A stretch of DNA of 64,000 nucleotides from Abyssibacter profundi (lineage in GTDB: Bacteria; Pseudomonadota; Gammaproteobacteria; Nevskiales; OUC007): the NCBI RefSeq assembly GCF_003151135.1, contig NZ_QEQK01000005.1, positions 124,001 to 188,000 on the forward strand, given 5' to 3'. Position 1 is the first letter of the stretch. Every line of letters begins with the position of its first letter. Shown here in pieces: positions 1 through 4,625 of the stretch. The translations under genes were made by a program, and so were the position numbers. Under the pieces are notes generated by a model. That model was not told the DNA's origin and searched no databases. It saw only the letters and a list, made by a program, of their open reading frames with translations.

Positions 1-386
1 GCTGTCACCAGTACATCGACGGCATCGGTTTCGGGTTCGAGCGTTACGACGGCGTGGGTGACTACCGCTCCACCGAAAATGGTCAGAACGTCGACGATTC
101 CGGTGAGGTCGTGGACATCGAGGGTTTCCGCACCGGGACCAATGACCCGTTCTTTGGTACGCGCCAGCTGGGCACGCTGTTGGCCAACAGCCCGGCCGCC
201 CAGGACTGCGCCGTCACCCAGTACTACCGCTACGCCCGCGGATACGCGGAGGGCGAGGCCGACGCCTGTGTGCTGGAAGACCTCACCCAGTCCTTCCGCG
301 ACAGCGGTTTTGATCTCAGGACGATGCTGATGGACTTGATCGCACATCCCAGTTTCGTGCGCCGCACTGCCGGAGGTGACGCATGA
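1..386 (+). CDS. Planctomycete-type cytochrome-like protein, C-terminal part (DUF1588/DUF1585)
   Basis: Only the last 127 or so codons are in the window, reading in frame from base 3; the start lies upstream. The visible part opens with CHQYIDGIGFGFERYDGVGDYR, matching the end of DUF1588, where a CxxCH-like motif is followed by DPIGFaFExFDaxG; the first Cys would be off the edge. It then runs into a DUF1585-like tail (FGTRQLGTLLANS, then LMDLIAHPSFVRR). Such proteins are large, exported, predicted haem proteins of unknown reaction, abundant in Planctomycetes and also found in some Proteobacteria. The stop overlaps the start of the following DUF1552 gene by 4 bases (ATGA), and the two families usually occur as a pair. 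Family assignment is fairly sure; function is unknown. Confidence 0.82.
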   Translation, partial: CHQYIDGIGFGFERYDGVGDYRSTENGQNVDDSGEVVDIEGFRTGTNDPFFGTRQLGTLLANSPAAQDCAVTQYYRYARGYAEGEADACVLEDLTQSFRDSGFDLRTMLMDLIAHPSFVRRTAGGDA

Positions 387-1702
387 TCCGGCGTCCGGTG
401 TCCCGCCGCGGCTTTCTGCGTGGCATGGCACAGGCCGGCGCGGCCCTGCCATTGTCTGCGCTGCTACATCGCTCTGCGCTGGCTGCAGAGGGCGGTGGCG
501 TGCCGCGGGCGCTATTCGTATTCATTCCCGACGGCTGTGCGCCGGAGCTGTGGCATCCCAGTGGGGACACTTACAACTTCACGCTGCCGCGCATGACTGA
601 CCCGCTAGAATCGGTGCGTCAGCACTGCGTGTTCCTCAGCGGACTGAACATGTACTCCGGTGGATCGACGCATGAGGGCGGGGTGGCCAAGGTGCTCACC
701 GCCACCGGGGACATCTCCATGGATGTGTTCATCGGCCAGTACTTCAAGGATCAGACGCCACATGCGTCCATCCATCTGGGCGTGGCCTCGAATCATCAGA
801 ACGGCTCCGGCTACATGTCCTACCTGGGTTCGGGGCAGCCGATTTCACCGGAGGACAACCCGTTGTCGGCCTACGAGCGGATGTTTGGTCCCCCCGGCGG
901 GGTCGAGGACATCGAGAATCGCCGCAAGCTGTCGGTGCTGGACGCCGCCATGGGTGACCTCAATACTCTGCAGACCCGCCTGGGCCAGGCGCAGCGCCAG
1001 AAGCTGGAACTGCATATGGAATCACTGCGTGAGGTGGAGAACCGGATTCTCGCCGCCGACCAGGCGGGTGCCGGGGCCTGTTCCCAGCCGGATTGGAACC
1101 GCGAAGGCTGGACCATCCCCGAGGGGTATAACAGCTACCCGAAGTATCACGATCGGGATGATCAGTTCGCCACCGTTGGCAAGTTGCAGATGGACCTCGC
1201 CGTGCAGGCGCTCAGCTGCGACATGACGCGCAGCCTGTCGCTGCAGTGGTCGCACCCGGTTAGCCCCACGCATTTGCAACCGGAGACCGGTGCTTCGCAG
1301 CGGCATCATGATTCCTCGCATTTCGACGCCAGCAACCTGGCCTCGGCCGAGAATTTCGTGCTCTACAAGCGCTGGTTCACCGAGCAGTTTGCGTACTTGC
1401 TGCGTGAACTCGATGCGCAACCGGAGGGTGACGGGACGCTGCTCGACAACACCGTGATCTTCCTGTGTTCTGAGCTGGGTCACTCCTCGCGGCATGACCA
1501 TCGCAATATGCCGTTTGTGCTGGCGGGTCGCGCCGGTGGTCTGGAGACCGGCCGGGCACTGGATTATTCCTCGGCGCACAATGGCGACGGCGAGACGCAT
1601 GCCAAACTGCTGGTGTCGATTGCCAACGCGGTGGGCATCCCCATCAACAGTTTCGGATACACCGGCCACGGAGACGGGCCGTTGCAGGGGCTATACGCAT
1701 GA
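383..1702 (+). CDS. Tat-exported DUF1552 protein
   Basis: 439 residues. The N-terminus has a twin-arginine signal, SRRGFLRG at residues 7-14, followed by a hydrophobic Ala/Leu stretch and a probable cleavage site near residue 35 (ALA-AEGG), so the protein is probably exported folded. The body matches DUF1552 (FIPDGCAPELWHPSG, FLSGLNMYSGGSTHEGG, SLSLQWSHP, CSELGHSSRHDHRNMPFVLAG), a family thought to be related to the DUF1501/sulfatase-like fold; no reaction is known. It overlaps the upstream cytochrome-like gene by 4 bases and the downstream thioredoxin gene by 4 bases, so all are probably one operon. The start was chosen because of the ATGA overlap and the Tat motif immediately after it. Confidence 0.88.
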   Translation: MIRRPVSRRGFLRGMAQAGAALPLSALLHRSALAAEGGGVPRALFVFIPDGCAPELWHPSGDTYNFTLPRMTDPLESVRQHCVFLSGLNMYSGGSTHEGGVAKVLTATGDISMDVFIGQYFKDQTPHASIHLGVASNHQNGSGYMSYLGSGQPISPEDNPLSAYERMFGPPGGVEDIENRRKLSVLDAAMGDLNTLQTRLGQAQRQKLELHMESLREVENRILAADQAGAGACSQPDWNREGWTIPEGYNSYPKYHDRDDQFATVGKLQMDLAVQALSCDMTRSLSLQWSHPVSPTHLQPETGASQRHHDSSHFDASNLASAENFVLYKRWFTEQFAYLLRELDAQPEGDGTLLDNTVIFLCSELGHSSRHDHRNMPFVLAGRAGGLETGRALDYSSAHNGDGETHAKLLVSIANAVGIPINSFGYTGHGDGPLQGLYA

Positions 1703-2205
1703 CACGATGGATCTTCGCGGTAATGGGCTTGCTGGGGGCGGTGACCGCCAGCGCGGTGGAGCTGGGTCAGGTGGCGCCCGAGACCCGCGGCGAACGGCTG
1801 CTTTACGACCAGACGCTGGATCTGGCGGATCTGCGCGGCAAGACCGTTTTGCTGGATTTTTGGGCGTCGTGGTGCGGGCCCTGCAAGCAGTCGCTGCCCA
1901 TGCTCGATCAGCTGCGCAGTGACCTGGTGGCTGGCGGCTATCCCGATCTGTTCGAGATTGTCGCCGTGAATCTGGATGAGAACCCCGAGGCGGCACGCCG
2001 GTTTCTCAAGCGCTATCCCGTGAGCTATCCGGTGATCACCGACCCGGAGGCCAGCCTGGCCGCGGTTTATAAGATTCCGACGATGCCGACCTCGTTCATC
2101 ATCAATCCGCAGGGCGTGGTGACCTGGCGGCACGAGGGCTTTCGTCCGTCGGAGATATCGGAGATTCGCAAGCAACTGGTCCAGACCATGAACGGGCAGC
2201 CCTGA
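1699..2205 (+). CDS. TlpA/ResA-like exported thioredoxin
   Basis: 168 residues with a signal peptide (hydrophobic residues 5-18, cleavage near ASA-VELG). The active site WCGPC is at residues 58-62, and the cis-proline region reads MPTSF, both as in TlpA/ResA/AhpC-TSA thioredoxins. These act in the periplasm as thiol-disulfide reductants, often keeping haem-binding or metal-binding cysteines reduced. Here the likely clients are neighbours: the cytochrome-like protein upstream, or the Cys-ending DUF4266 lipoprotein encoded next (the TGATG overlap shares one base). The family is clear; the client is inference. Confidence 0.9.
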   Translation: MTRWIFAVMGLLGAVTASAVELGQVAPETRGERLLYDQTLDLADLRGKTVLLDFWASWCGPCKQSLPMLDQLRSDLVAGGYPDLFEIVAVNLDENPEAARRFLKRYPVSYPVITDPEASLAAVYKIPTMPTSFIINPQGVVTWRHEGFRPSEISEIRKQLVQTMNGQP

Positions 2206-2432
2206 TGCGGTCGCGGTACACCACCGGCGTGACGCTCATGGCAGCCCTGTTCATGCTGGCTGGCTGTTCGGTGACTCCCCTCAAACCCTGGGAGCGAGGG
2301 CATCTGGCCGAGCCGACCATGGCCTGGGAACCCGATCCACTGGCGGCGCAGCTGGAATCGCATGTCTATTTCAGCAAGGAAGCCTCCACCGGCGGTGCCA
2401 GCGTCGGTGGCGGCGGTTGCGGATGCAATTAG
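2205..2432 (+). CDS. DUF4266 small lipoprotein with a GGGGCGCN tail
   Basis: 75 residues. The lipobox is LAG-C with Cys21 as the acylated residue, so the mature protein has only about 55 residues. It contains PWERG and ends in a Gly-rich tail, GGASVGGGGCGCN, with Cys72 and Cys74. This architecture matches DUF4266, a family regularly encoded beside a thioredoxin, a DUF3570 protein and ApbE, exactly as here. The paired terminal cysteines suggest binding of a metal or cofactor, or thiol chemistry with the coupled thioredoxin, but no function is established. The start codon overlaps the thioredoxin stop (TGATG), implying translational coupling. Confidence 0.85.
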   Translation: MRSRYTTGVTLMAALFMLAGCSVTPLKPWERGHLAEPTMAWEPDPLAAQLESHVYFSKEASTGGASVGGGGCGCN

Positions 2433-2472: not shown

Positions 2473-3672
2473 ATGACCGATCAGAAAAAACGCCCCGGCA
2501 GTGCCGCCCTCCAGGCCCTGACCGCGGCGGCAATGACCCTGCCGGCCTACCAGGCTGCGGCGGCCACCCGTGACGAGACCACCCGCGTGTCCTTGCGGAC
2601 GGCCCTTTACGACGAGGCCGAACTGGACCCGGCGCAGGTGTCTTCCGACACCACCGAGCGCTATGACATCGAGGTGGGCCAGTTTCGTGCCAGCGCCCCG
2701 CTGGGCGAGCACTTTGCCGTGGCGCTGGATGTGGCCTACGAAACCATGTCCGGGGCCTCGCCCTGGTTTGTGCAGCCGGATGCCGATGGCCGCCCGGTGC
2801 AGGTCATGAGCGGCGCAACCATTGACGACGCGAGGACGGACATCCTGCTGTCGCTGTCCCGGTATAACGAAGCCGGGCGGCGGGTTTCGTTGTCGCTGGG
2901 GCAGTCCACAGAGAATGACTACGAGTCCCACAACCTGGGGCTGGAGGTCGAGTGGGAGGATGCTGACAAGATGACCGCCTACACCCTGGGGGGTGGCGTC
3001 TCATCCGATCGCATTACGCCCACGGATGCGCAGACCCGTTTCCCCAGTCGGCCCGACGATGAGGACAAGCAGTCGATGACAGTGCTGGGGGGCATCTCCC
3101 AGATTCTCGGGCCCAAGACCGTGATTCAGACGGCGTTGTCCGTCAGCTATCTGGACGGTTACCTGTCCGACCCCTACAAGCTGGTCTCGGTCGAGGACGA
3201 CCTGCGTCAGGACGCGCGGCCCGACGGCCGATGGACGGCTGCCTGGACCACCCGGCTGCGTCGGCGGTATGCCGGCGTTGGCGCCACGGCGCACCTGGAT
3301 TATCGGCTTTACGGTGACGACTGGAACGTGGTGTCGCACACGCTGTCGTTGGCCTGGTACCAGGGCGTCGGCGAGCGGCTGACGCTGACGCCCAGCCTGC
3401 GCTACTACAGCCAGAGCCAGGCTTTTTTCTACCAGCCCTTCTTCCGTGCCCGCCGGGACGACAACCTGTATTCCAGCGACTACCGGCTGTCGCCCTATGG
3501 GGCCGTGACCCTGGGCTTGTCCGGCGAATATCGCTGGGAGCAGCTCAGCCTGACGGCGAGCTTCGAGCGCTACGACAGCAGCGGCGACTATGCAGTGGGC
3601 TCCGTGGTCACCGAGAACCCGGGGCTGGTCGATTTCACGGTGCTCGCGGTCGGTTTGCAGTACGCATTCTGA
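2473..3672 (+). CDS. DUF3570 outer-membrane protein
   Basis: 399 residues from the ATG at 2473; a longer frame open from 2362 would overlap the DUF4266 gene and lacks a signal. The N-terminus has an Ala-rich export signal ending near AYQAAAA. The rest alternates polar and hydrophobic residues as in a beta-barrel and ends in Phe (LQYAF), typical of outer-membrane proteins. Two motifs stand out: SGAS at residues 93-96 (in YETMSGASPW) and SGAT at 113-116 (in QVMSGATIDD). They resemble the Dxx(S/T)GAT sequence that ApbE modifies with FMN, although the leading Asp is Glu or Gln here. With apbE next door, covalent flavinylation is possible but untested. DUF3570 has no assigned function. Confidence 0.85.
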   Translation: MTDQKKRPGSAALQALTAAAMTLPAYQAAAATRDETTRVSLRTALYDEAELDPAQVSSDTTERYDIEVGQFRASAPLGEHFAVALDVAYETMSGASPWFVQPDADGRPVQVMSGATIDDARTDILLSLSRYNEAGRRVSLSLGQSTENDYESHNLGLEVEWEDADKMTAYTLGGGVSSDRITPTDAQTRFPSRPDDEDKQSMTVLGGISQILGPKTVIQTALSVSYLDGYLSDPYKLVSVEDDLRQDARPDGRWTAAWTTRLRRRYAGVGATAHLDYRLYGDDWNVVSHTLSLAWYQGVGERLTLTPSLRYYSQSQAFFYQPFFRARRDDNLYSSDYRLSPYGAVTLGLSGEYRWEQLSLTASFERYDSSGDYAVGSVVTENPGLVDFTVLAVGLQYAF

Positions 3673-3674
3673 GC

Positions 3675-4625
3675 GTGACCATGCAGGCCGTGGAGTTTCA
3701 CGCCATGGGCTGTCCCTGCAAGGTGCAGGCGCAGACCCAGGCGGCCTGTGACGCCGCCCGGCGGGTCGTGGACGACCTCGAGGCCCGGTATTCCCGTTAT
3801 CGCCCCGACAGCCTGTTGTCAGCGGCCAATCGCTCAGCCGGCGCCCCCCAGGGGTGGAAGGCCGACCCGGAAACCGCGCGCTTGTTGGACTTTGCCCAGG
3901 CGGCCTACGAGCAAAGCGAGGGCGGCTTTGACATCACGGCCGGCGTGCTGCGTCGGGTCTGGGATTTTCGCAGCGGGCGCCTGCCCACGCCGGATGCAGT
4001 CCGAGCCTGTCTGGGTGATGTTGGCTGGAGCCGCGTGGGTTGGGATGGGGACACCCTGCGCTTGCCGGCCGGCATGGAGCTGGACTTTGGCGGTTTTGTG
4101 AAGGAGTACGCCGCGGATGCGGCGGCAGCCGCCGCGCGTGCGGCTGGCGCCCGGCATGGGCTGGTCGACCTGGGGGGAGACCTGGCCGTCATCGGGCCGG
4201 ATGACAGGGGCGCGCCGTGGCAGGTCGGTATTCGCGATCCCCTGGGCAGCACGCAGCCTGTGGCCCGTATCGCGCTGGGACAGGGCGGGCTTGCCAGTAG
4301 CGGCATGTATGAGCGCTGCATCCGCGTTGGTGATCGCGTCTACGGGCATGTACTCGACCCCCGCACCGGCTGGCCCCCCGAAGAGGGCCTGGCGGCCGTG
4401 TCGGTCCAGGCCGAGAGCTGTCTGATCGCCGGCATTGCGGCCACCGTGGCGCTGGTGCATGGCGCGCAGGCAGGGCAGCGTTGGCTGGACCAGCTGGGCC
4501 TGCCTTATGTGACGGTGGATCGGTCGGGCCGACGCCGGTTCGGGCCGGCGTCGGCCTCGGATCAGGGCGCGGGTGCGGCGGGTCCAATCAACGGCAGCGA
4601 GAGCGTGCCTTCGACATTGACCTGA
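3675..4625 (+). CDS. apbE: FAD:protein FMN transferase (ApbE family)
   Basis: 316 residues from GTG 3675, or 314 from ATG 3681; neither start has a clear ribosome-binding site. ApbE transfers FMN from FAD to Ser/Thr of exported target proteins. Family signatures are present: LDFGGFVKEYAAD, HGLVDLGGDLAVIG, SSGMYER and YGHVLDPRTGWP, the last two belonging to the flavin/Mg-binding region. Oddly, no signal peptide or lipobox is visible, whereas typical ApbE is periplasmic. It starts 2 bases after the DUF3570 stop and closes the operon. Its 3' end overlaps the convergent lipoprotein gene by 64 bases, and the last ~20 residues beyond FGPASA may not be conserved. Confidence 0.9.
   Translation: MTMQAVEFHAMGCPCKVQAQTQAACDAARRVVDDLEARYSRYRPDSLLSAANRSAGAPQGWKADPETARLLDFAQAAYEQSEGGFDITAGVLRRVWDFRSGRLPTPDAVRACLGDVGWSRVGWDGDTLRLPAGMELDFGGFVKEYAADAAAAAARAAGARHGLVDLGGDLAVIGPDDRGAPWQVGIRDPLGSTQPVARIALGQGGLASSGMYERCIRVGDRVYGHVLDPRTGWPPEEGLAAVSVQAESCLIAGIAATVALVHGAQAGQRWLDQLGLPYVTVDRSGRRRFGPASASDQGAGAAGPINGSESVPSTLT

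Follow-up and report, generated by a model that had tools for sequence, protein, structure and literature searches.

Organization of the DUF3570 locus

The window (the whole 64,000-nucleotide stretch of Abyssibacter profundi DNA that was analyzed) opens within an operon of six genes on the + strand, in which the gene ends overlap throughout the first four. The first gene, whose start lies upstream of the window, contributes the C-terminal part (PSD2; 1..386) of a PSD/PSCyt3 lipoprotein; the full protein (893 aa; L035:9705-12386) comprises an N-terminal cytochrome c domain, CBM_2, PSD3, PSD5, PSD4, PSCyt3 and PSD2. It is followed by a DUF1552 (HXXSHH) protein (383..1702), which overlaps both neighbors and has a twin-arginine-like N-terminus (SRRGFLRG) that reads as a Tat signal, by a TlpA/ResA-like thioredoxin (WCGPC; 1699..2205) with a putative N-terminal export signal, and by a small DUF4266 lipoprotein (LAGC lipobox; 2205..2432). 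The glycine-rich tail of the latter ends in GGGGCGCN, a CxC arrangement, and the tail GCGCN is present in 158 of 171 members of the DUF4266 family.

The fifth gene (2473..3672) encodes a DUF3570 protein of 399 aa, a predicted 16-strand outer-membrane barrel that ends in phenylalanine and lacks cysteine. DUF3570 is its sole domain match (PF12094, E 2.2e-59, 201.8 bits against a cut-off of 25), and PF04205 (FMN_bind) is not among the matches. After a gap of 2 nt comes the sixth gene (3675..4625), encoding an ApbE, or FAD:protein FMN transferase (PF02424, E 2e-67, 228.4 bits), without an export signal and with the residues K143-E144 and G253 that form the signature of the partner clade described below. 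The initial annotation had placed SGAS (93-96) and SGAT (113-116) in a DUF3570 barrel directly before apbE, led at position -3 by Glu and Gln, and on these points it was accurate: motif 1 (S93-G-A-S96; 2749..2760, +) is preceded by E90-T-M and motif 2 (S113-G-A-T116; 2809..2820, +) by Q110-V-M. By analogy with the proteins of PMC8238504, S96 and T116 are the predicted FMN sites.

A convergent S15-type peptidase gene on the - strand overlaps the 3' end of apbE (4562-4625), and a scan of the locus for promoters and terminators gave nothing above shuffled background. DsbD was not found in the cluster, the genome's sole DsbD_TM match lying on another contig (C16), and a linked DsbD was therefore rejected as the electron source. 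The nearest relatives found are labelled Abyssibacter sp. (83% identical) and uncultured Salinisphaerales (82%). A search of plasmids for other phyla returned three Vibrio replicons and nothing else, and a DUF3570 locus is also present on a metagenome-assembled contig (L124) labelled Klebsiella pneumoniae, a label that is probably wrong.

The DUF3570 family was described as an ApbE substrate with two conserved [S/T]GA[S/T] motifs by Meheust et al. 2021 (eLife, PMC8238504), whose main text reports flavinylation of the Chlorobium luteolum protein by its cognate ApbE, a modification abolished only when both Ser-to-Ala changes were made. The same text describes clusters in which ApbE and DUF3570 are accompanied by a thioredoxin-like protein and by a CxC-tailed DUF4266; these clusters occur with DsbD or, in 316 cases, without it. 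The window has these four families, the two motifs and the CxC tail; it differs from the DsbD-linked clusters in having no linked DsbD, and from the clusters described in that text in that the first two genes of its operon encode a PSCyt3/CBM_2 cytochrome and a DUF1552 protein. Since the window otherwise fits the published system, the central claim was already known and the locus is best regarded as a further member, a DUF3570 thiol-flavin system for which covalent flavin is predicted by analogy. The proposal of a flavin-carrying outer-membrane barrel is strongly supported by the homologue biochemistry in the text of PMC8238504, by motif conservation and by the modelled position of the motifs in an outer loop, whereas its description as a new type of electron carrier does not hold, a flavinylated DUF3570 having been reported there in 2021.

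The partner ApbE lacks an export signal and has an altered metal site

For comparison across the family we used a survey set of 147 unique DUF3570 proteins drawn from order, phylum and genome-contig scans, 115 of which are encoded beside apbE and 32 of which are not. In a simple hydrophobicity test (not SignalP), none of the 115 partner ApbEs, among which the experimentally tested C. luteolum ApbE is not included, has a signal-like N-terminus, compared with 22 in a set of 46 further ApbEs from these genomes and related ones. In most partner ApbEs no more than about 25 residues precede the core; the ApbE in the window begins at its catalytic core, with no in-frame start codon upstream. The second ApbE of the source genome has a signal-like N-terminus. 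A further ApbE clade (N-terminus like MNRVLIP; L166, L168, L169, L170, L255) also lacks an export signal, and because signal-less ApbEs occur in other clades the absence of a signal is not unique to DUF3570 partners.

In the sequence tree (n=85) the partner ApbEs are a clade of their own: a branch supported at 100/96 separates all those included in the tree, together with four divergent DUF3570-adjacent ApbEs, one of which is borderline in the signal test, from the rest. At the metal site, Glu144 and Gly253 are found in all 115 partner ApbEs, whereas the same positions are Gly and Asp/Glu in 42 of the 46 others, the four exceptions being the divergent DUF3570 neighbors. In E. coli Ftp, D280 and T284 are ligands of metal 1 and E169 of metal 2 (PMC4767422); mapped by motif spacing, window positions 253, 257 and 143 correspond to D280, T284 and E169, respectively. 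The canonical metal-site aspartate is missing from the window ApbE, in which its place is taken by Gly253, and Thr257 is kept. We infer from these sequences that a carboxylate has been shifted inside the metal site of the partner ApbEs.

At their N-terminus, canonical periplasmic ApbE/Ftp proteins carry a signal for secretion or lipidation as a lipoprotein, and neither kind is present in the window ApbE. This missing signal points to cytoplasmic FMN attachment, and the published co-expression in E. coli, which as described in the text of PMC8238504 used signal-truncated proteins and mostly insoluble DUF3570, indicates that a cytosolic, poorly folded DUF3570 can be modified. It is conceivable, and deserves serious weight, that ApbE instead reaches the periplasm by a route invisible in its sequence and flavinylates the barrel after export, since the best-studied ApbEs are periplasmic lipoproteins whose location has been shown to matter (PMC12052999). 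However, the uniform lack of a signal-like N-terminus, the short distance from start to core, the lack of an upstream start codon in the window and the nature of the published substrate all argue against this route, and we hold it to be doubtful. Tat export of DUF3570 as the cause of cytosolic loading was rejected, twin arginines occurring in some members only.

The export signal of DUF3570 is only weakly hydrophobic, which counts against an exported flavin-carrying barrel. For a signal peptide, the corresponding region of the window gene (2473-2570; LxALTAAALALPGxAxA) shows unusually strong conservation within the family.

The motifs lie at the feet of a predicted outer loop

An AF2 model built from a 16-sequence alignment (pLDDT 84.8, pTM 0.82) has 16 strands, with low confidence at residues 1-33, in line with a signal peptide. 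The strand number is even, the modelled N and C termini lie on the same side, and the C-terminal residue is aromatic (F399), so that in the model DUF3570 is almost certainly an exported outer-membrane barrel of 16 strands. Solved barrels that match the model include PelB, PgaA and BcsC, with Z scores of about 19-20 and rmsd values of 3.5-4.4 over 256-301 residues; these matches show fold, not function. Short turns are found at 78-80, 132-136, 163-167, 214-215, 267-270, 300-302 and 356-357, with the long loops on the opposite side, an asymmetry that gives the orientation of such barrels. SGAS is placed at the end of strand 3 and SGAT before strand 4, and the stretch that separates the motifs forms a small hairpin (97-102, 108-112). 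Because the motifs in this way flank loop 95-116, the two sites should oppose each other, and it is fairly likely that the feet of loop 2 face outward and would hold two FMNs close together, the inter-site distance being judged from strand positions in the AF2 model. In the sub-type with a motif spacing of 11, AF2 again gives this barrel, and the two motifs fall in the corresponding loop, which is of low confidence there.

The outer loops of such barrels are usually their most variable part. Among 96 two-motif proteins, however, the long loops are more conserved than the short turns (2.19 against 1.18 bits), and the loop side contains 42 of the 50 residues with the highest conservation, a contrast with the usual pattern that points to a working site on this side. 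It is possible that the motif loop folds into the lumen, or that the flavins face the periplasm, which would make the carrier periplasm-facing rather than surface-exposed, and the conserved charged residues could indeed line the lumen. Strand order, turn lengths and the C-terminal phenylalanine nevertheless put loop 95-116 outside in the model, which makes a periplasm-facing carrier unlikely.

Motif retention tracks the partner ApbE

NqrC and RnfG, which are FMN_bind proteins, carry FMN that ApbE attaches to Ser/Thr within an SGA[ST]-type motif led by an acidic residue. The DUF3570 protein of the window resembles them in its SGA[ST]-type motifs and in the acidic residue before motif 1, and differs in that it lacks PF04205 and is a barrel with two predicted sites on one loop. 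In 109 of the 115 apbE-adjacent proteins motif 1 takes the form [DE]xx[ST]GA[ST], with Glu at -3 in 75 and Asp in 34; the other six lack it. As Glu is the commonest -3 residue in the family, it is no weakness in motif 1, which the initial annotation had for this reason called a partial match. The -3 residue of motif 2 is mostly Gln, Val, Leu or Ile, and motif 2 is, as far as sequence can tell, independent of an acidic lead. When the window DUF3570 was shuffled 200,000 times, two [ST]GA[ST] motifs fell within 25 residues of each other at a frequency of 5e-4, and together with conservation in homologues this led us to reject a chance origin.

Two motifs are present in 75 of the 115 apbE-adjacent proteins, one in 37 and none in three. 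Two flavins are therefore not universal, motif 2 being absent from a large sub-type marked by D-x-LTGASPNGA. This absence, and the general lack of an acidic -3 residue before motif 2, would suit a barrel in which motif 1 alone is modified and SGAT is a structural remnant, giving one FMN per barrel. Yet in two-motif members both glycines are at least 93% conserved, the motifs persist at the same loop feet even though the spacing between them varies (11 or about 20 residues), and loss of flavinylation in C. luteolum required mutation of both motifs, according to the text of PMC8238504; a single FMN on a two-motif barrel is on these grounds improbable. For the window protein, we consider FMN on S96 very likely by analogy and FMN on T116 only slightly less so.

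The expectation that the motifs would be conserved only in proteins encoded beside apbE was not borne out by the family comparison, as both are kept in 20 of the 32 non-neighbors. Wherever the genomes of these motif-keeping non-neighbors could be searched (e.g., G004, G009, G010, G024, G030, G055 and G058), an unlinked apbE of the partner type was found; several others sit on short or unsearched contigs. Conversely, in a ten-member sub-clade the glycine of motif 2 is lost in all ten proteins and that of motif 1 in six, and the genomes concerned have no partner-type ApbE except for one beside a second DUF3570. Several of them encode a different, mostly signal-bearing ApbE 6-18 kb away. As non-neighbors keep the motifs and this sub-clade loses them, retention of the motifs goes with having a partner ApbE somewhere in the genome and not with adjacency. 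That DUF3570 is an ordinary porin whose neighboring ApbE acts on other proteins, such as the two FMN_bind proteins encoded elsewhere in the genome, is very improbable, since the second ApbE, with its signal-like N-terminus, is available for those targets, the partner clade goes together with DUF3570, and the motifs are lost where the partner is absent.

Partner-type apbE genes were also seen away from any DUF3570 (L173, L174, L175, L177, L179, L186 and L198), in genomes whose DUF3570 has no neighboring apbE. Among the Myxococcota, members like the window DUF3570 show the same pattern of motifs and partner ApbE, and a more divergent set there has partly retained motif 1, for the most part with no ApbE in the vicinity. 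One cluster from the motif-losing sub-clade (L276; G078:C4:3107000-3122500) combines a DUF3570 with degraded motif 2, an HZS_alpha-domain protein, a signal-bearing ApbE and a Laminin_G_3 protein that contains two CxxCH motifs and matches PSD2 weakly.

Discussion

The evidence assembled here enables us to propose how the system might work. In this model, the adjacent ApbE would link FMN through a phosphoester to S96 of SGAS and T116 of SGAT, the last residue of each motif, on a DUF3570 protein that would be exported as a 16-strand outer-membrane barrel. Flavinylation of the barrel at these two sites, with a general role as electron carrier, is probable. Attachment may take place in the cytoplasm on the unfolded precursor, with Sec export and insertion to follow, an order of events that we regard as evenly balanced. 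In the folded barrel the two sites would lie opposite one another at the base of extracellular loop 2, on the most conserved face, which is directed outward, and this arrangement would hold the two FMNs near one another. It is possible, if somewhat short of an even prospect, that the partner ApbEs constitute a separate cytosolic class with a rearranged metal site, and that the barrel crosses the inner membrane already loaded to present a close pair of flavins at the surface.

A cytosolic ApbE is known from Klebsiella, where it modifies the soluble fumarate reductase (reviewed in PMC12052999). The window ApbE likewise has no signal peptide, but its target, unlike the soluble reductase, is a predicted outer-membrane protein that is exported. 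In the papers searched, in the case of PMC8238504 in its main text, a cytosolic ApbE with an exported target is not discussed, and neither the missing ApbE signal, nor the metal-site swap, nor the barrel position of the motifs, nor the motif-losing sub-clade is stated.

Electrons might pass among the TlpA-like thioredoxin in the periplasm, the CxC tail of the DUF4266 lipoprotein and the flavins of the barrel, a route that would couple thiols on the periplasmic side to a surface reaction. The redox partner within the operon may be the pair of PSCyt3 cytochrome and DUF1552 protein, and we advance this thiol-to-flavin route, with its possible partner, tentatively. The pair of lipoprotein and Tat-type DUF1552 protein occupies window positions 1-1702 (L035:9705-13702) within the DUF3570 operon. 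Five other genomes (L056, L058, L059, which is cut by the contig end, L061 and L073) share the gene order PSD-DUF1552-TlpA-DUF4266-DUF3570, and in two further loci (L089, L090) PSD and DUF1552 genes lie upstream at a similar distance. Verrucomicrobia have PSCyt3 paired with a family of unknown role and PSCyt (Planctomycete-specific cytochrome c) with carbohydrate-binding modules, in clusters to which no function was assigned (PMC5615132). The window resembles those PSCyt/PSD clusters in having a PSCyt3/PSD protein with a carbohydrate-binding module beside an uncharacterized family, and differs from them in that the pair belongs to one overlapping operon with a DUF3570 flavin system. The flavin system may serve PSCyt3-type cytochromes.

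While a flavinylated barrel was known, a partner ApbE without an export signal is less expected, and the clade of signal-less partners bears on where exported flavoproteins receive their flavin. With the sites located, in the model, on an outer loop of the face that is conserved, the working of the barrel becomes testable, and the sub-clade that lacks the partner and has lost the motifs provides a natural control. Finally, the link between DUF3570 and the PSCyt3/DUF1552 pair suggests a possible partner for two systems that have so far stood unexplained.
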